In this document: positions 1 to 35,895 of the stretch, one piece after another
How positions within the stretch are numbered: the stretch's first letter is position 1
Layout: each line of letters starts with the position of its first letter
Assembly: GCA_017444825.1 (NCBI GenBank)
Contig: JAFSVU010000036.1
Location: 1 to 39,684 of the forward strand
From: Clostridia bacterium
GTDB lineage: Bacteria > Bacillota > Clostridia > UBA1212
DNA length: 39,684 nucleotides
Direction: 5' to 3'
Position numbers and translations under genes: made by a program
The notes under the pieces: generated by a model
What the model saw: only the letters and a program-made list of their open reading frames with translations
Told to the model about the DNA's origin: nothing
Databases searched by the model: none

Positions 1-780
1 GTCATCATCGTCGTCATCGTGGTGATGGTGGCAGCAGCATTCGTCATCATCGTCCTCATCTTCTTCATCGTAATCTTGTTTGTGATGACAGAAGCACTCT
101 GCGTCATAATCGTCATCGTCATGATGGTGATGATGGTGGTGCTTCATAGCCTCTTTTTCCAGCTCCTTCAGCTGATTTTCGAGGGAGTTGCTCTGCCTTA
201 TGGCGTCAAGTATCTGTTTTCCGGTGATCTTGTCCCAGGGGGTCGTGACGATGGTGGCCTCAGGGTTGATCTCGCGGATCCTTGCAACGCACTCGGCAAG
301 CCTTTCCTCGCTGACCTTGTCGGTGTGGCTCAGAATGACGGTTGCGGCGTGCTCGATCTGATTCAGGAAGAATTCGCCGAAGTTCTTTGAATAAACTCTG
401 AATTTTCCCGCGTCCACCACAGTGACTGCGCTGCCGACCTTTGCGTTCTCATTGTCAAGTCTTGTTATAGCGCCAATGACGTCGGAGAGCTTTCCTACGC
501 CTGAAGGCTCGATCAGTATGCGCTCGGGGGCCAGCTCGGAGATAACGCGGTTCAGTGCGTCGCCGAAATCACCCACAAGGCTGCAACAGATGCATCCCGA
601 ATTCATCTCGGTGATCTCGATGCCCGCCTCCTTCATAAAACCGCCGTCAATGCCTATCTCGCCGAACTCGTTCTCGATGAGAACGATCTTCTCGCCTGCG
701 TAGGCTTCCTTGATCAGCTTCTTTATGAGCGTTGTTTTGCCTGCGCCCAAAAATCCTGAAAATACATCTATTTCGATCAT
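1..780 (-). CDS. CobW/COG0523-family GTPase with His/Asp/Cys-rich tail (3' end outside window)
   Basis: This is a G3E P-loop GTPase of the CobW/YjiA/ZNG1 group, a family that delivers or handles metal ions such as zinc or cobalt. It reads from ATG at 780 for 260 residues without a stop, so the C-terminus is missing. The Walker A motif GFLGAGKTT is at residues 9-17, the family metal motif CICC at 63-66, EPSG follows in the switch region, and SHTDK stands where NKxD is usual. From about residue 214 the chain becomes a metal-binding tail: seven His (214-220), Asp4, CxC-HH (229-233), an acidic stretch, CCC-HHHH (248-254), then Asp6 up to the window edge. Whether a CobW C-terminal domain follows cannot be seen. 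An AAAGGAG ribosome site lies 11 bases upstream and a promoter at 833-862. The GTPase family is certain; the metal is not. Confidence 0.9.
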   Translation of the reverse strand, partial: MIEIDVFSGFLGAGKTTLIKKLIKEAYAGEKIVLIENEFGEIGIDGGFMKEAGIEITEMNSGCICCSLVGDFGDALNRVISELAPERILIEPSGVGKLSDVIGAITRLDNENAKVGSAVTVVDAGKFRVYSKNFGEFFLNQIEHAATVILSHTDKVSEERLAECVARIREINPEATIVTTPWDKITGKQILDAIRQSNSLENQLKELEKEAMKHHHHHHHDDDDYDAECFCHHKQDYDEEDEDDDDECCCHHHHDDDDDD

Positions 781-832
781 TTTTAAAAATCACTCCTTTG
801 ATTAGTTATGAGAAAGGATCTCATGCCGTCTG

Positions 833-883: not shown

Positions 884-2212
884 TTATTTAAAGAATGCTT
901 TAAACATTTCCTCCGTGGACAGGTGGTCTGCGACCGAGCCCAGCTCCTTTGGCGAGTGCATCGCAAGGAGGGGAGTACCTATGTCGCAGGTCTTTATGCC
1001 GAGAGCCGCGGAGAGCATGGGGCCGATGGTGCCGCCGCCACGGGAATCGGAATTGTTGGAAAAACGCTGGAAGGGAATGTTGTTTTCTTCGCACAGGAAG
1101 GCAAATTCCGCGAGGGGCTCAGCTTCCGTGGAGTAGCTCTGGTTCCATGTCCTCTTAAGAGCCACACCCTTGCCCAGTATGACAGGCTGGGTGCCGTCGT
1201 AGAGCTCGGGGTAGGACGGGTGGGTGGCGTGGCCCATGTCTGCGGAGAGAAGGAAGCTCCGCCCGGTGACGTCGAGAATATGTTCCTCCGGGAAAAATCT
1301 TTTTGCGATGGCCTTAACCGTCTCCACGGCGAATGCGCTTCTTGCGCCAACGTCCGTCTGGGAGCCGCACTCTTCGTGGTTAAAAGCGAAGGCGAGCCTT
1401 ATATCGGAGCTGCAGTCTGAAAGAGCACTTGGCTCGGCGTCCGCCAGAAAGCCGGTGAACAGCGAGTGGACCATACCCCTGTCGTCAAGGCCCTGCGCCA
1501 GTATGAACTCCTCCGACGCGCCGCAGAGAGACGCTCCGTCCGCGACGGTGAGGGAAAGATCGAAGCTCATAATATCCGAAGGGAGGATACCTGAGATCCC
1601 CGAGACCTCCGACGCTTTTTCCGCGATCATTTTTGCGAACACGTCTTCGCCTTCGTCATTGTCGAGGCCGAAGAAGGGGAGAAGCTGGTTCTGGATGCTG
1701 AACCTGGCGCCGTCGTTGACGCCGTGGTTCATGTGGATCGACGGGTTCGGGATGACGAATCGTTTTCCGAAATCAACGACGTCCGCAAACCGAAGCTCGC
1801 CGTCTGCCCGGAAGAACACTCTTCCGGAGAGCTTGAGCGCCCGGTCCATCCAGGGGTGAACTATAGCCCCGCCGTACATTTCAACGTTCATGCGGAGAAC
1901 GCCGTTGCCTTTTCTGAGACCCGAGGTCTTGATCTTTAAGACCGGGTAGTCCATGTGGGCGGCGCCGATGCGTATGCGTCCCTTTCCCGCGGAAGGCTCG
2001 CAGGGACCGGTGAAAAACGCGGCGACTGCGGTGTCTCCCTGGGTGACGTAATAGCCCCTGCCACGCTCGGCCTTATCCATGTCCGTGAGTGTGATCTTTT
2101 TAAAGCCCGAAGATGTCAGGGCGTCGATAAGTTCCGAGGATACGTGGAACGGGGTGGGTGTTTTGTCAAGAAATTCGATGAAATTGGTTATATCGCCGAA
2201 TTTGAGTTTCAT
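884..2212 (-). CDS. M18 family metalloaminopeptidase
   Basis: This is a dinuclear zinc aminopeptidase of family M18 (aspartyl aminopeptidase/ApeB type), a cytosolic tetrahedral enzyme that removes N-terminal, often acidic, residues. At 442 residues it has the normal family length. The expected metal and catalytic residues are visible: AAHMD (His86), LDDRG (Asp243), NHEECGS (Glu280/281), SADMGHA (Asp325) and MHSPKE near the C-terminus (His419). The start is ATG at 2212, six bases after AAAGGAG. The gene follows the parA/parB-like pair on the same strand by 67 bases and may be cotranscribed, though the short spacer holds a small GGTCTT/AAGACC hairpin. Substrate preference cannot be read from the sequence. 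Confidence 0.93.
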   Translation of the reverse strand: MKLKFGDITNFIEFLDKTPTPFHVSSELIDALTSSGFKKITLTDMDKAERGRGYYVTQGDTAVAAFFTGPCEPSAGKGRIRIGAAHMDYPVLKIKTSGLRKGNGVLRMNVEMYGGAIVHPWMDRALKLSGRVFFRADGELRFADVVDFGKRFVIPNPSIHMNHGVNDGARFSIQNQLLPFFGLDNDEGEDVFAKMIAEKASEVSGISGILPSDIMSFDLSLTVADGASLCGASEEFILAQGLDDRGMVHSLFTGFLADAEPSALSDCSSDIRLAFAFNHEECGSQTDVGARSAFAVETVKAIAKRFFPEEHILDVTGRSFLLSADMGHATHPSYPELYDGTQPVILGKGVALKRTWNQSYSTEAEPLAEFAFLCEENNIPFQRFSNNSDSRGGGTIGPMLSAALGIKTCDIGTPLLAMHSPKELGSVADHLSTEEMFKAFFK

Positions 2213-19927: not shown

Positions 19928-20620
19928 ATGACTATGGAAAAGACAGCCGAAACTGAAAAAAAGACATCGAACAAGGCCATGCACGACCCTGCGGACATCA
20001 CCGAATTCGACAAGGGACTGAGTTTAGTCGACAGAGCCGTGATATTCGCTGTGAAAGCCCATATGGGAAGCAAAAGGAAGGGGTCCGGTACTCCCTACAT
20101 CGTTCACCCGATGGAGGTGGGAGTGATCGCGGCGTCCCTTTCCACGAATTTCGGCGACGAGGCGCGCCAGAATATAATCGCGGCGGCGCTTCTCCACGAC
20201 GTTCTTGAGGATACAGCGGCCACACCGGAATATATAATGGAGAAATTCGGCCCCGAGGTACTGCGCCTCATAAAAAGTGATTCCGAAAACAAGAGACCAG
20301 GCATTCCCTCCGCGGAGTCGTGGCAGATCAGGAAGGAAGAGACCATTGATTATGTGAAGAACAGGGCGACCCTTGACGAGAAGATCATCATATTCGCCGA
20401 TAAGCTATCAAACCTCCGGTCGATCTTCTGTGACTACCGCCGGGAGGGCGACAAGCTCTGGAACAAGTTCAACATGAAGGACCCCGCAAAGCATGCCTGG
20501 TACTATAGCTCATTTGCGGACCTCATGACGGAGTTCAGAGAAGAGCCTGCGTATATGGAATACAAACAGCTGCTGAAGGTCATTTTCGGCGCCGTCAGCG
20601 ATGCGGAATGGAGATTATAA
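19928..20620 (+). CDS. Single-domain HD hydrolase, SpoT/MESH1-like
   Basis: This 230-residue protein matches the HD hydrolase half of RelA/SpoT proteins, which hydrolyses (p)ppGpp to GDP or GTP plus pyrophosphate using Mn2+. It has the family pattern KAHMGSKRKGSGTPYIVHP (about 40-58), ALLHDVLEDT with the HD pair and the following Glu-Asp, and FADKLSNLRSI with the third metal Asp. No synthetase, TGS or ACT domain follows, so it is a small alarmone hydrolase or a related phosphohydrolase of different substrate. The start is ATG at 19928 after GGAGGG at a longish 11-base spacing; ATG at 19934 is an alternative. It lies 39 bases after the rhamnosidase and abuts the M32 peptidase gene. Confidence 0.85.
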   Translation: MTMEKTAETEKKTSNKAMHDPADITEFDKGLSLVDRAVIFAVKAHMGSKRKGSGTPYIVHPMEVGVIAASLSTNFGDEARQNIIAAALLHDVLEDTAATPEYIMEKFGPEVLRLIKSDSENKRPGIPSAESWQIRKEETIDYVKNRATLDEKIIIFADKLSNLRSIFCDYRREGDKLWNKFNMKDPAKHAWYYSSFADLMTEFREEPAYMEYKQLLKVIFGAVSDAEWRL

Positions 20621-20621
20621 T

Positions 20622-22102
20622 ATGGACGGAAAACTTCTTGAAAGGCTGGAGGCTTTCGAAAAGAGCTGCTTTGCTCTCAATCACGCCATGGGGATACTGA
20701 ACTACGACGGAGACACGTCCGCTCCCCCGAAAAGCACGATCGTAAGGGGTGAGACCCTGGGCGAACTGTCAAGGATGATATATGAACTCACAACGGGGCC
20801 GGAAGCGGTAAAGCTTCTGGCTGACCTTGAGGCGGCTAAGGATACCCTTGATCCGGTGACTCTGCGAAAGGCCGTTCTCTTGAGGCGGGATTATGACGAG
20901 ACACATTGCATTCCCGTTGACGAGTACGTGGAGTACGTGAAGCTCCGGACCGAGTCGACACACGTCTGGAAAAAAGCCAAACAAACCAATGATTTCAAAC
21001 TGTTCGAGCCTTATCTTCAGAAGATGTTCGACTATTCGCGAAAATTTGCGCTCTACAAAAATCCCGGTGAGGACCCGTATTCAACGCTGCTGGATTCTTT
21101 TGAAAAGGGTCTTACAGCGGAAAAATGCGACAGATTTTTCGGCGAGCTCAAAAAAGGCTGGTGCCCATCGCCGCAAGGGCGGCAGAGAAGTCCTCGGGCA
21201 TTGACGTGGGCCCTATCAGCGTGCCGTTCCCGGTGGAAAAACAGAGGCTGCTGTCTGACTATCTCATGAATGTCATAGGCCTTGACAGGGAGCGCTGCAT
21301 TCTCGGAGAGACGGAACACCCGTATACCACGGACTTTTCCAAGTACGACGTGAGGATCACCACCCACTATTATGAGACCATGCCCGCGGCATCCATGTAT
21401 TCGGTGATACACGAGGGCGGACACGCGCTTTATGAGCTTGGCGTTGCGGATGATATCGCTCTCAGTATGCTGGGCAGCGGCGTTTCAATGGCCATCCATG
21501 AGAGCCAGTCGAGGTTTTACGAAAACATTATCGGAAGGAGCGAGGCCTTCTGCGCATTGGTTTTCCCGAAAATAAAGGAGATCTTTTCGCCTCTCCTTGA
21601 CGGCGTGGATGCCCACGGCTTCTGGAGGATGGTGACGAAGGTGGAGCCCTCCCTTGTGAGGACCGAGGCCGATGAAGTCACGTACTGCCTCCATATCATG
21701 ATCAGGTATGAGCTTGAAAAGAGGATGCTTTCGGGCGAACTGAAAGCAGGCGACCTCCCCGGAGAGTGGAACAGGCTGTATAAGGAGTACCTGGGGATAG
21801 ACGTGCCCACCGACAGGGAAGGTGTGCTGCAGGATGTGCACTGGTCGGAGGGACTCATTGGTTATTTCCCCTCCTATGCCATCGGATCCGCCTACGGCGC
21901 GCAGTACCTCAAGGAAATGCAAAAGGAGTTCGACGTCTGGGAAGCCGTGAGGACCGGAAATATAGGGAAGATCAGCGCATGGCTGGAAAACAGGATCTGG
22001 CGGCACGGAAGAATGATCGACCCCTGCGAGCTCTTTGAGAGCATCTGCGGACCTCTTGACGCAAACGTTTTCGCAGACTACCTGGAAAATAAATATAACT
22101 GA
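20622..22102 (+). pseudogene. M32 carboxypeptidase, interrupted by a frameshift at 21150-21155
   Basis: M32 (Taq-type) metallocarboxypeptidases are cytosolic, helical, HExxH enzymes of about 500 residues. Here the N-terminal third (from ATG 20622, GGAGA seven bases upstream) reads normally to FFGELKK. It then drifts into unrelated sequence and stops at 21269. The rest of the protein continues in another frame from RLVPIAARAAEK and includes the zinc motif HEGGH, the family motif HESQSR and a normal C-terminus at 22102. Adding one A to the A6 run at 21150-21155 restores a single intact chain of about 494 residues. Both halves are well conserved. The break may be a homopolymer sequencing error, a recent inactivating mutation, or slippage. 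Tight packing with the genes on both sides suggests a functional operon member. Confidence 0.85.
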
Positions 22103-31676: not shown

Positions 31677-32159
31677 ATGGACAACGGGTGTCTGAAAAAC
31701 GACGAAAAGTATCAGAAACTCCTTGAAGTCATTGAAGCCAACAAAAACATTCGCGGTTCCCTGATCCGTGTTCTTCACGATGCTCAGGAGATCTACGGCT
31801 ATCTGCCCATCGAGGTGCAGAAGGTCGTTGCAGAGGGGCTGGGAATTCCTCTCGCCGAGGTTTACGGAGTTGTGACTTTCTATGCGCAGTTCTCAACAAA
31901 GCCGAAGGGCGAGTACAAGGTTTCTGTATGTCTCGGAACGGCTTGCTATGTTAAAGGCTCGGACAAGCTTCTCGAAAAGCTGGAAGAAGAGCTGGGCATA
32001 AAGGTGGGGGATTGCACGGAAGACGGTAAATTCTCGATAGAGGCCTGCAGATGCATCGGCGCCTGCGGACTTGCGCCTGTTTTCACGATCAATTCGGACG
32101 TTTACGGTAAGAAGATCCCGGACGACGTTCCCGCAATTATCGCAAAATATAAGAACTGA
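31677..32159 (+). CDS. hydC: [FeFe]-hydrogenase subunit HydC (NuoE-like)
   Basis: HydC is the small thioredoxin-fold [2Fe-2S] subunit of the trimeric electron-bifurcating hydrogenase, which couples oxidation of NADH and reduced ferredoxin to H2 production, or the reverse. The 160-residue protein has the NuoE ligand set: CLGTAC (Cys85, Cys90) and CRCIGACG (Cys126, Cys130). Typical flanking segments include LIRVLHDAQEIYGYLP and YGVVTFYAQF. The start is ATG at 31677, nine bases after CGGAGG. It is first in a tight HydC-HydB-HydA operon with a 14-base gap to HydB. Confidence 0.95.
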   Translation: MDNGCLKNDEKYQKLLEVIEANKNIRGSLIRVLHDAQEIYGYLPIEVQKVVAEGLGIPLAEVYGVVTFYAQFSTKPKGEYKVSVCLGTACYVKGSDKLLEKLEEELGIKVGDCTEDGKFSIEACRCIGACGLAPVFTINSDVYGKKIPDDVPAIIAKYKN

Positions 32160-32173
32160 CGGGGGTGCGAAGG

Positions 32174-34132
32174 ATGATTACCAGACAGGAACTTAATGCG
32201 CTGAGAGAAAAGGCATTGCCGAAAATAGCTCTCAGAAAAAAGATTTTTGCAGACAGAATTCCCGAGCTTTCCGAAAAGAAGATCGTTGAAGTCAAACCCG
32301 GTACCGAAAAGACCTACAGAGCCCACATTCTCTGCTGCGCAGGTACGGGCTGCAAGTCCTCGGGTTCGGACGTTCTCAGAGCCGAGTTTGAGAGAGTGCT
32401 TGAAAAATATGACCTTATCGACGAGGTTAAGATCGTAAAGACCGGATGCTTCGGACTTTGTGCCGAGGGACCGATCGTAGTCGTTTATCCCGATGACGCG
32501 ATGTACTGCAAGGTACAGCCCGAGGATATCGAAGAGATCGTAACCGAGCATATCATGAACGGCCGCATCGTAAGAAGGCTTCTGGAAAACGAAGAGGCCA
32601 GGAAGAGAGAGGGCGAGATCACCGAGGAAGACCTCGAGGGCAGCACCTTCTTCAAGAAGCAGATGCGTATCGCTCTTCACAACTGCGGCAGAATTAATCC
32701 CGAAGATATAGAAGAATATATCGCCGTTGACGGCTACCAGGCACTTGCCAAGGTCGTCACCGAAATGACTCCGGACGACGTTATCAACGTCATGCTCGAC
32801 TCAGGGCTGAGAGGCCGCGGCGGCGCAGGCTTCCCCACCGGAAGAAAATGGCTCTTCGCGAAGAACAGCGTATCCGCTCAGAAATACGTTTGCTGCAACG
32901 CAGACGAGGGCGACCCGGGCGCATTCATGGACAGATCAGTTCTTGAGGGCGATCCTCACGAGGTCCTTGAGGCTATGGCCATCGCCGGATATGCCATTGG
33001 CGCAAACCAGGGATACATCTACGTAAGAGCAGAATACCCGATAGCAGTCGAGAGACTGGGAATCGCCATTAAGCAGGCTGAAGAGTACGGGATCCTCGGC
33101 GAACACATCTTCGGCACCGACTTCTCGTTCAAGATCGATCTGAGACTCGGCGCAGGCGCATTCGTGTGCGGCGAAGAGACGGCTCTTATGACGTCGGTCG
33201 AAGGCCACAGAGGCGAGCCGAGACCAAGGCCGCCTTTCCCGGCAGTCAAGGGACTCTTTGCCGAGCCTACGATACTCAATAACGTTGAGACCTACGCCAA
33301 CGTTCCTCAGATCATTCTGAAGGGCTCCGAGTGGTACAAGAACATAGGTATCCCCACCAGCACAGGCGCGAAGGTATTCGCAGTCGGCGGTAAGATCAAG
33401 AACACCGGTCTCGTTGAGGTACCGATGGGCACGACTCTCCGCGAAGTGGTCTATGACATTGGCGGCGGTATCCCGAACGGAAAGAAATTCAAGGCTGCCC
33501 AGACAGGCGGACCTTCAGGCGGATGCATCCCCGCTTCTCTCATCGACACACCCATTGATTACGACTCGCTTATCAAGATCGGTTCGATGATGGGTTCCGG
33601 CGGTCTTATCGTTATGGATGAAGACACCTGTATGGTCGACATTGCGAAGTTCTTCCTCGAATTCACTGTTGAGGAAAGCTGCGGAAAGTGCCCGCCCTGC
33701 AGGATCGGAACGAAGAGAATGTACGACATCCTGGATAAAATAACCAAGGGCCAGGGCGAGCTCTCCGATATAGACGACCTCTATGAGCTTGCCGACGCCA
33801 TCAAGTCCTCCGCTCTCTGCGGTCTCGGCCAGACTGCGCCTAACCCGGTGCTCTCGACACTGAGATATTTCAAGGATGAGTACATTGCCCACGTTGTCGA
33901 TAAGAAGTGCCCCGCAGGCGTCTGCAAAGCGCTCATGCAGTACAACATCGATAAAGAAAAGTGCATCGGCTGCGGCAAGTGCGCAAGAAACTGCCCTGCT
34001 GACGCCATTTCAAAGACGGATTACACCGCTCCGGGACACAAGCTCCCCTCGATGGTCATTGACCAGACCAAGTGCGTCAAGTGCGGCGCCTGCATGAGCG
34101 GATGTAAGTTCGACGCGATTTCGAAGAAATGA
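32174..34132 (+). CDS. hydB: [FeFe]-hydrogenase subunit HydB (NuoF-like, NADH/FMN)
   Basis: HydB is the FMN subunit that binds NAD(H), the presumed bifurcation site. The 652-residue chain has an N-terminal thioredoxin-like [2Fe-2S] domain (CAGTGC with Cys55 and 60; CFGLC, 92-96) and then the NuoF core with the Gly-rich RGRGGAGFPTGRKW and a second flavin/NAD region containing CNADEGDPGAF. It also has the [4Fe-4S] site ESCGKCPPCRIG (Cys503, 506, 509) with Cys549. The C-terminal 2x[4Fe-4S] ferredoxin (Cys597-607 and Cys634-644) distinguishes HydB from complex I NuoF. ATG at 32174 follows GGGGGTG by six bases; a GTG at 32165 is an alternative. HydA follows with 14 bases between. Confidence 0.95.
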   Translation: MITRQELNALREKALPKIALRKKIFADRIPELSEKKIVEVKPGTEKTYRAHILCCAGTGCKSSGSDVLRAEFERVLEKYDLIDEVKIVKTGCFGLCAEGPIVVVYPDDAMYCKVQPEDIEEIVTEHIMNGRIVRRLLENEEARKREGEITEEDLEGSTFFKKQMRIALHNCGRINPEDIEEYIAVDGYQALAKVVTEMTPDDVINVMLDSGLRGRGGAGFPTGRKWLFAKNSVSAQKYVCCNADEGDPGAFMDRSVLEGDPHEVLEAMAIAGYAIGANQGYIYVRAEYPIAVERLGIAIKQAEEYGILGEHIFGTDFSFKIDLRLGAGAFVCGEETALMTSVEGHRGEPRPRPPFPAVKGLFAEPTILNNVETYANVPQIILKGSEWYKNIGIPTSTGAKVFAVGGKIKNTGLVEVPMGTTLREVVYDIGGGIPNGKKFKAAQTGGPSGGCIPASLIDTPIDYDSLIKIGSMMGSGGLIVMDEDTCMVDIAKFFLEFTVEESCGKCPPCRIGTKRMYDILDKITKGQGELSDIDDLYELADAIKSSALCGLGQTAPNPVLSTLRYFKDEYIAHVVDKKCPAGVCKALMQYNIDKEKCIGCGKCARNCPADAISKTDYTAPGHKLPSMVIDQTKCVKCGACMSGCKFDAISKK

Positions 34133-34146
34133 GGGGGTGCGCGAAT

Positions 34147-35895
34147 ATGAAAATGATAAATCTTAAAATAGACGGTACCCCGGTAACAGTTCCGGAGGGA
34201 ACAACGATCCTGGAAGCCGCAAGACAGGCCGGCGTAAAGATCCCGACACTCTGCTTCCTTAAGGATATTAACGAAATAGGCGCATGCCGTATGTGCGTTG
34301 TTGAAATCAAGGGCGCAAGGGCTCTCCAGGCCGCCTGCGTATATCCGGTCTCCGAAGGTCTTGAGGTTATAACCAATTCCCCCAAGGTCCGCAAATCCAG
34401 GAAGATCACACTTGAGCTCATTCTTTCGAACCACGACAGACGCTGCCTCGAATGCACCAGATCCCAGAATTGCGAGCTCCAGGCTCTCTCTAAAGAGCTT
34501 GGCGTTAACGAGATCCGCTTCCCCGCTCTCAGCGATAAGAAGCTTCTCCCCATCGACAGCATTTCCCCGTCGGTAGTTCGCGATCCCAATAAGTGCGTGC
34601 TCTGCAGAAGATGCGTCAGCGTCTGCAAAAACGTTCAGACAGTAGGCGTTATCGACACCATGGAGAGAGGCTACAGAACGGTGGTTGGTTCTCCCTTCGG
34701 AAAGTCCCTGGCAGAGACTCCCTGCGTAAACTGCGGACAGTGCATCGCGGTTTGCCCCACAGGCGCTCTCACGGAAAAATCCGAGAAATCAGAGGTTTGG
34801 GCAGCTCTTGCGGATCCCGATAAATACGTGGTGTTCCAGACCGCTCCCGCAGTAAGGTTCTCCATTGGCGAAGCTTTCGGAATGCCCATAGGCTCAAGAC
34901 CGACAGGCAAAATGGTTACCGCTATCAGACGCCTTGGCGTTGACAAGGTGTTCGACACAGACACCGGCGCAGACCTCACCATTATGGAAGAGGGCACAGA
35001 GCTCCTCCAGAGGATCAAGAACGGCGGAAAGCTCCCGATGATCACATCCTGCAGCCCCGGATGGATAAAGTTCTGCGAGCACAACTTCCCTGATTTCCTT
35101 GACAATCTTTCATCCTGCAAATCTCCTCACGAGATGTTCGGCGCGGTGATCAAGACGTATTACGCAAAGAAGATGGACATCGATCCTTCCAAGATCTTTA
35201 TGGTCAGCGTAATGCCCTGCACGGCGAAGAAGTTTGAGGCAAAGAGAGACGAAATGAAGAATTCCTCGGGATTCGTTGACGTGGACGCTGTTCTCACCAC
35301 GAGAGAGCTGGCGGCGATGATCAAAGAGGCAGGCATCGACTTCGTGAATCTGCCCGACTCCGACTTTGACGACCCGATGGGCAATGCGACAGGCGCAGGC
35401 GTCATATTCGGCGCCACCGGCGGTGTTATGGAAGCAGCCCTCAGAACAGTTGCCGACATACTCACCGGCGAAGAGCTGAAGGACATTGACTACCACGCAG
35501 TCCGCGGTGTTAAAGGCATCAAGACTGCTGAAGTCAACGTGGCCGGAAAGACCATCAGAGTGGCTGTGGCCAGCGGCCTTGGCAATGCCCGCAAGCTTCT
35601 CAACTCCATCAGATCCGGCGAAGCGACTTACGACTTCATCGAGATCATGGCTTGCCCCGGCGGATGTGTAAACGGCGGCGGTCAGGTGATCCAGCCCTCA
35701 CAGGTGAGAAGCTGGGTGGATCTGAGAGAGCTCAGAGCAAAGGCTACGTACGAAGAGGATGTGGACCTCCCGATCCGCAAGTCTCACGAGAACCCCGTGA
35801 TAAAGAAGCTCTACGAAGAGTTCTACGGCGAGCCCGGAAGCGAGCTGGCACATCACGACCTGCACACCCACTATCATAAGAGAGACAACTATTGA
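34147..35895 (+). CDS. hydA: [FeFe]-hydrogenase catalytic subunit HydA, trimeric type
   Basis: HydA carries the H-cluster and produces or consumes H2. In 582 residues it shows a [2Fe-2S] domain (Cys36, 47, 50, 64), a His-ligated cluster (HDRRCLEC-x5-C from His96), and two [4Fe-4S] motifs (Cys150-160, Cys193-203). The H-domain follows: L1 is TSCSPGW (300-306), L2 is MPCTAKKFE (Cys358) and L3 is MACPGGCVNGGG (Cys503, 507). L1 has Ser where the textbook TSCCPxW has its second Cys. The C-terminus ends in SHENP, a YEEFYGEPGS segment and a His-rich tail. ATG at 34147 follows GAGGGGGTG by seven bases; ATG at 34129 overlaps the HydB stop and is less likely. The maturases HydE, HydF and HydG are not in this window. 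The clusters and gene order support NADH/ferredoxin bifurcation. Confidence 0.95.
   Translation: MKMINLKIDGTPVTVPEGTTILEAARQAGVKIPTLCFLKDINEIGACRMCVVEIKGARALQAACVYPVSEGLEVITNSPKVRKSRKITLELILSNHDRRCLECTRSQNCELQALSKELGVNEIRFPALSDKKLLPIDSISPSVVRDPNKCVLCRRCVSVCKNVQTVGVIDTMERGYRTVVGSPFGKSLAETPCVNCGQCIAVCPTGALTEKSEKSEVWAALADPDKYVVFQTAPAVRFSIGEAFGMPIGSRPTGKMVTAIRRLGVDKVFDTDTGADLTIMEEGTELLQRIKNGGKLPMITSCSPGWIKFCEHNFPDFLDNLSSCKSPHEMFGAVIKTYYAKKMDIDPSKIFMVSVMPCTAKKFEAKRDEMKNSSGFVDVDAVLTTRELAAMIKEAGIDFVNLPDSDFDDPMGNATGAGVIFGATGGVMEAALRTVADILTGEELKDIDYHAVRGVKGIKTAEVNVAGKTIRVAVASGLGNARKLLNSIRSGEATYDFIEIMACPGGCVNGGGQVIQPSQVRSWVDLRELRAKATYEEDVDLPIRKSHENPVIKKLYEEFYGEPGSELAHHDLHTHYHKRDNY

Follow-up and report, generated by a model that had tools for sequence, protein, structure and literature searches.

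COG0523 proteins such as YciC, YjiA, YeiR, and ZigA combine a P-loop GTPase domain, a GCxCC motif, a CobW_C domain, and a His-rich region towards the C terminus. To our knowledge, whether the His-rich stretches of these proteins store metal or pass it on is unsettled. Haas et al. (PMC2770081) name GCxCC as the COG0523 motif and report a His-rich stretch in about 40% of 887 COG0523 proteins, with up to 29 His as an upper example. YjiA and YeiR prefer Zn(II) (PMC7895991). HypB, UreG, UreE, and SlyD likewise carry a His-rich stretch on a metal-handling protein, with a logic of storage plus delivery (PMC2770081). A further system pairs a TIGR03943/DUF1980 protein with an ArsP_1 permease. For DUF1980 and zinc, the open-access literature searched offered an S. 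aureus lipoprotein of unknown function.

The window analysed here is a stretch of 39,684 nucleotides, the whole of contig C20 in the assembly of a Clostridia bacterium (2.45 Mb, 56 contigs, 97% complete). One end of it holds the 5' part of a COG0523-type gene, cobW1. Compared with the described COG0523 proteins, cobW1 carries a much larger insert built of His/Asp/Glu/Cys units, and in the loci seen it has a constant partner gene, cobW2. The family is known; what is new is how large the insert is, that it is built of repeats, and that the gene is constantly paired with one for a G3E-DUF1980 fusion. The features at this end of the window are as follows.

1 to 780, minus strand: 5' part of cobW1, a COG0523/G3E GTPase gene of 260 codons, open at the contig end (translation and profile).
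247 to 765, minus strand: PF02492 GTPase domain, residues 6 to 178 (E 2.5e-39).
733 to 756, minus strand: P-loop GFLGAGKT, residues 9 to 16, invariant in 16 aligned sequences.
583 to 597, minus strand: GCICC metal-binding motif (GCxCC), residues 62 to 66, invariant in 16 aligned sequences.
1 to 141, minus strand: first 47 residues of the His/Asp/Glu/Cys-rich insert, from sequence composition.
1 to 18, minus strand: run of six GAY codons at the contig end, 18 in-frame bases that match the beginning of the 3' part on contig C21.
793 to 798, minus strand: AAGGAG, the probable cobW1 ribosome-binding site, picked by eye from the sequence.
884 to 2212, minus strand: M18 aminopeptidase gene, just upstream of cobW1 (PF02127, 2.4e-92).

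A plus-strand ORF (1 to 390) runs antisense to cobW1. Elsewhere in the window, the coding sequence of a Peptidase_M32 protein is spread over two overlapping frames (20601 to 22102, plus strand; profile positions 6 to 174 and 164 to 489), which look like the product of a frameshift or a sequencing error.

The initial annotation called the gene product a CobW-type GTPase, and the profiles agree. The window protein scored about 135.1 to 136.5 bits against PF02492 (cut-off, 20.7), and GCICC, the GCxCC of COG0523/G3E GTPases, stood in 16 of 16 aligned sequences. A CobW_C domain after the insert, which the annotation had advised looking for, was found: PF07683 gave 28.8 bits on contig C21 and 26.9 bits in the full-length orthologue of a same-genus genome, G004 (cut-off, 22), and for the source genome this assignment rests on the C20-C21 join described below. 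By its sequence, cobW1 is a member of the COG0523/G3E GTPases, with predicted GTPase activity and metal binding. However, the full-length G004 protein stayed under the NCBIfam cut-offs of the named types: CobW (TIGR02475; 86.7 bits, and 92.9 for the partial window protein, against 332.1), ZigA (88.1 against 600), and the YjiA-type PRK11537 (75.7 against 361).

Positions 780 to 1 translate to 260 residues that end in KHHHHHHHDDDDYDAECFCHHKQDYDEEDEDDDDECCCHHHHDDDDDD at the first base of the contig. The stretch reads His7-Asp4, then CFCHH, then CCCHHHH-Asp6, and runs off the contig end. Its density is real. The last 49 residues hold 13 His, 18 Asp, 5 Glu, and 5 Cys, so that 41 of 49 (84%) are H/D/E/C, against 41% for the runner-up among 9,711 other 49-residue windows from 25 coding segments of the window. 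GAT and GAC (10 and 8) and CAC and CAT (7 and 6) are mixed, which rules out a plain trinucleotide run.

The stretch had been described as a tail at the window end. The window does end there, because contig C20 ends. However, the cobW1 frame resumes in the last 354 bases of contig C21 with eight Asp, EHEHHHEHGHHHHHHGHDADEIFASWG, and CobW_C, followed by cobW2. Since this 3' part has more Asp and His and then CobW_C, the stretch is an insert within the protein and not a tail. The run of six GAY codons occurs in the 2.45-Mb genome only at window positions 1 to 18 and at C21:50294-50317. On sequence grounds the two contigs likely join through the 18-base overlap, and the length across the join is approximate; the overlap is of low complexity, so the join may omit a repeat unit. 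The simplest join gives 371 residues, compared with 374 in G004, where cobW1 is intact on one contig (L037:9137-10261). The single G004 contig carries, in a row, cobW2, cobW1, the M18 gene (PF02127, 1.4e-96), ParB, and a ParA-type ATPase. The side with cobW2 also carries a Mur ligase in each of the two genomes. On C21 beyond cobW2, this Mur ligase is accompanied by three small zinc-ribbon proteins (L036:311-3286, plus strand). An Acinetobacter COG0523 protein is reported to interact with MurD (PMC12208494).

As query for the subfamily, we took either the partial window protein or just the GTPase domain. The search covered 58 genomes, the source genome included, of which 19 had a close cobW1 homologue (E ≤ 4.2e-74, identity ≥54%), and a scan of named genomes from which the best 80 of at least 590 relatives were taken. 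Nearly all of these best 80 are titled Clostridia or their families, with one titled Alistipes, and many come from animal gut or rumen, going by isolate name. The parsed set comprised 97 homologues (17 from the 58-genome set plus the best 80 of at least 590). L019, whose start is interrupted by N and which has no parsable frame, was excluded before the counts; L009 and L109 are the same protein, and both are among the 97. Fifteen of the 97 fell outside the complete set: eight met a contig end, three had N-runs, one had an in-frame stop (G023), and three had an insert of fewer than 36 residues.

All 97 parsed homologues, which include the best 80 of at least 590, had the insert, either whole or cut. 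In complete homologues among the matches listed, it lay between the GCICC GTPase and the C-terminal part and was not free-standing. Length variation had been expected from the repetitive codons, and it was found: in 82 complete inserts of at least 36 residues among the matches listed, the median length was 73.5 residues (range, 36 to 138). These inserts held a median of 37.5 His (range, 21 to 75), 12 Asp, 13 Glu, and 6 Cys, were 93% H/D/E/C, and exceeded 29 His in 66 of 82 cases. Across 85 inserts among the matches listed, 6,481 residues comprised 3,219 His, 1,146 Glu, 1,129 Asp, 516 Cys, and 15 Lys or Arg. The mix in the window, which had been called extreme, is so within the window but not exceptional in its own subfamily, as judged from the 82 complete inserts among the matches listed. 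Runs of four Asp occurred in 17 of these, CCC in 18, and both in just 6, so the mix seen in the window is a less usual version of a widespread design. Intact inserts also occur in named genomes such as Ruminococcus flavefaciens SAb67, Butyrivibrio hungatei DSM 14810, and Evtepia gabavorous KLE1738. Large H/D/E/C inserts are, from these sequences, the rule in this clostridial subfamily.

We ran AlphaFold on the R. flavefaciens cobW1 homologue (20 rows; mean pLDDT, 68.1). Most of the GTPase and CobW_C parts scored above 70, and the insert (residues 214 to 300) scored below 50 and is predicted to be disordered. The GCICC-bearing stretch (residues 38 to 70) was also modelled poorly, with a pLDDT below 50. 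A sequence profile at E 0.001 recovered YjiA entries only as solved relatives (1nij and 4ixn). In structure comparisons, which span mainly the GTPase parts, YjiA (Z 13.7, rmsd 2.9, 177 aligned, 27% identity), UreG (Z 13.8), and Shulin (Z 14.1, rmsd 5.2; the top row) were tied for the cobW1 model, and HypB came next. The cobW2 model was good (mean pLDDT, 89.1), and its GTPase part resembles HypB and YjiA. An OB-like fold for the cobW2 C terminus was considered and set aside; it came from a few Foldseek rows (CST, Stn1-Ten1, and RPA) with query-normalised TM of 0.17 to 0.23.

In 85 of 97 loci (including the best 80 of at least 590), cobW2 followed cobW1 downstream on the same strand. Among the matches listed, 82 of these 85 lay within 142 bases of the match start, and the 12 of 97 loci without a visible cobW2 ended 0 to 363 bases after cobW1. 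The cobW2 product has a weak G3E domain and a DUF1980_C domain (PF21537, 2.1e-21 in the source genome), with a Cys-Cys pair invariant in 24 aligned sequences. A CxCC motif was not seen in the first 120 residues of the 85 cobW2 frames (two cut short) among the matches listed. DUF1980_C is shared with the TIGR03943/DUF1980 proteins. However, cobW2 has the C-terminal domain only, fused to a G3E GTPase, and it scored 85.2 and 85 bits against the TIGR03943 permease-subunit cut-off of 88.8, passing PF21537 alone. We did not find the cobW1-cobW2 pairing described in the open-access literature searched. Across 83 clostridial loci, no third gene was prominent as a recurrent neighbour; the next clusters after the CobW cluster reached at most 14 of 83.

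We then looked outside the class. In a phylum-wide draw of 249 genomes, 12 matched at 1e-60 or lower, and 8 of these came from outside the class: four without an insert, three with a short one, and one with a moderate one (20 His in the protein). Seven neighbourhoods were fetched, and znuA stood in two. The G207 genes run znuA, ArsP_1 permease, full DUF1980, COG0523, and a second short G3E protein (L148:2910-7610, plus strand), and this run is possibly the ancestral layout of the clostridial pair. In G259, znuA adjoins the COG0523 homologue. Three homologues without an insert (L152, L153, and L154) lie near MtaB, MTTB, or URO-D-type genes; COG0523 genes are reported to cluster with corrinoid methyltransferases by Haas et al. 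(PMC2770081). Nothing was recognised in the neighbourhood of the moderate-insert homologue. Since four of eight lack the insert and some lie beside corrinoid-methyltransferase genes, the metal and the client may vary. A 61-row tree of insert origin gave three changes of the "insert" label; with its long branches it is unsafe, and it neither shows nor excludes a single origin.

The initial annotation had advised a search for zinc transporters and Zur sites. No zinc transporter was recognised among the scanned ORFs of the window and C21 (a few ORFs lay outside the scan), and a znu operon was found elsewhere in the source genome, where one further gene comes after znuA, an ABC ATPase, and an ABC-3 permease.

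L129:7783-8337 (source-genome contig C16), plus strand: CC-motif lipoprotein, after the znu ABC genes.

This lipoprotein was present in 5 of 58 genomes, adjoining znuB in all five, the source genome included. Compared with cobW2 DUF1980_C by hhalign, a local five-sequence profile gave P 8.9e-6 and a probability of 83, whereas the value was 1.2 as a single sequence and 21.5 in global mode. The likeness is therefore suggestive.

For regulation, we scanned 98 upstream regions with six patterns (Zur-, PerR-, and AdcR-like); the clade's own motif may differ from these. Zur-type boxes were not above shuffles in the 98 regions, and the PerR-type pattern was weakly in excess, with 10 compared with a mean of 5.6 and a maximum of 9 in 20 shuffles. 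Palindromes found de novo were mostly A/T-rich, the best being present in 14 of 98 regions, compared with at most 10 in 10 shuffled sets. The source genome has one Fur-family gene. A palindrome, ATGAGA-N5-TCTCAT, lies at window positions 808 to 824 between the M18 gene and cobW1, and the palindrome lists of 17 other upstream regions do not include it.

We suggest that cobW1 is probably a zinc metallochaperone with an on-board zinc reservoir that works with the cobW2 product; a metal store, as the initial annotation had proposed, is also our best reading of the insert. In this scenario, the flexible H/D/E/C-rich insert that links the GTPase domain and CobW_C would act as the reservoir. It would hold many ions weakly to moderately and feed the GCICC site, from which a GTP-gated transfer would load client proteins. 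The partner would be the cobW2 product, a G3E GTPase that lacks the Cys motif and is fused to DUF1980_C. The order of the domains, the gene pair, the conserved ligands of the insert, its predicted disorder, and the znuA genes next to two distant homologues come from the analysis itself; we infer the zinc identity, the transfer from reservoir to site, the clients, and the physical partnership of the two GTPases. A more tentative extension is a two-GTPase zinc machine, in which cobW1 would be an evolvable, repeat-built bank with dozens of ligands and cobW2, whose DUF1980 domain is otherwise met in a run with znuA and the permease, a dedicated partner, possibly in a heterodimer, that charges or discharges it.

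The insert may instead be a sink for zinc or toxic metal that buffers excess, with GTPase delivery being secondary. Its size and ligand density would suit this role, since Asp, Glu, and His would give many weak sites, and L151, a homologue with a short insert, has a cation-efflux gene next to it. However, in complete homologues among the matches listed the insert is placed between the GCICC GTPase and the C-terminal part instead of standing free, and two distant homologues neighbour znuA uptake genes. We consider a sink unlikely.

A nickel or cobalt metallochaperone of the HypB, UreG, or CobW kind is improbable. The close solved folds do include HypB and UreG, and the His-rich nickel protein Hpn shares the storage-plus-delivery likeness to cobW1. 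In HypB, a His stretch binds Ni (PMC2770081). However, the cobW1 insert is also rich in Asp, Glu, and Cys, unlike that of the His-rich nickel proteins, and searches of the source genome for [NiFe] hydrogenase, urease alpha, and CobN found no match. The window instead carries [FeFe] hydrogenase genes with Nuo-type flavoprotein and ferredoxin-like subunits (31677 to 35895, plus strand), and the score against the CobW equivalog was far under its cut-off.

Could the insert be a functionless coding minisatellite, drifting in a tolerant linker? Tandem units of variable copy number are indeed present, with internal repetition above all 50 shuffles in 63 of 82 complete inserts among the matches listed, and distant homologues do without an insert. 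However, Lys and Arg are almost lacking, and the insert is kept in all parsed clostridial homologues among the matches listed. We compared units in 19 loci with a self-identity of at least 0.75. There, 373 of 1,107 codon pairs differed between units, comprising 207 silent changes, 101 swaps within H/D/E/C, and 65 others, so that 308 of 373 were silent or ligand-for-ligand, with periods picked by amino-acid identity, a choice that favours silent changes. Periods picked by nucleotide identity gave 226 silent, 148 swaps, and 80 others (21 loci). At the best, often poor, period for all 82 among the matches listed, ligand swaps (1,238) exceeded silent changes (940), with 429 others. Transitions at codon positions 1, 2, and 3 numbered 26, 62, and 246, and transversions 94, 15, and 81; the latter indicate that ligand exchange is common. 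The pattern is consistent with selection that keeps metal ligands but leaves the copy number unconstrained, and we regard functionless expansion as very improbable.

Among the 19 relatives that have the gene, 8 show a contig end or an N-run within the stretch or where it ends (G000, G001, G003, G005, G011, G017, G023, and G024), so the stretch breaks short-read assemblies and the gene is often split in draft genomes. An assembly artefact, which the initial annotation had named as the refuting case and which these breaks would favour, can be practically dismissed, because the insert is intact on one contig in G004 and in named genomes such as the three above and recurs in every parsed homologue among the matches listed. 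In G023 (L008), an in-frame TAG lies inside the repeat and the frame goes on as His/Asp/Cys to the locus end; it is either a nonsense change or an assembly error.

The zinc reservoir reading can be pursued in nature's own variants. The subfamily offers a natural series of insert sizes, together with a constant neighbour gene, and because the series runs from no insert to 75 His on homologous GTPases, the reservoir idea is testable by comparing natural variants. If the two-GTPase machine is true, an uptake module of znuA, permease, DUF1980, and COG0523 would have given rise to a soluble descendant that serves zinc allocation in gut Clostridia.
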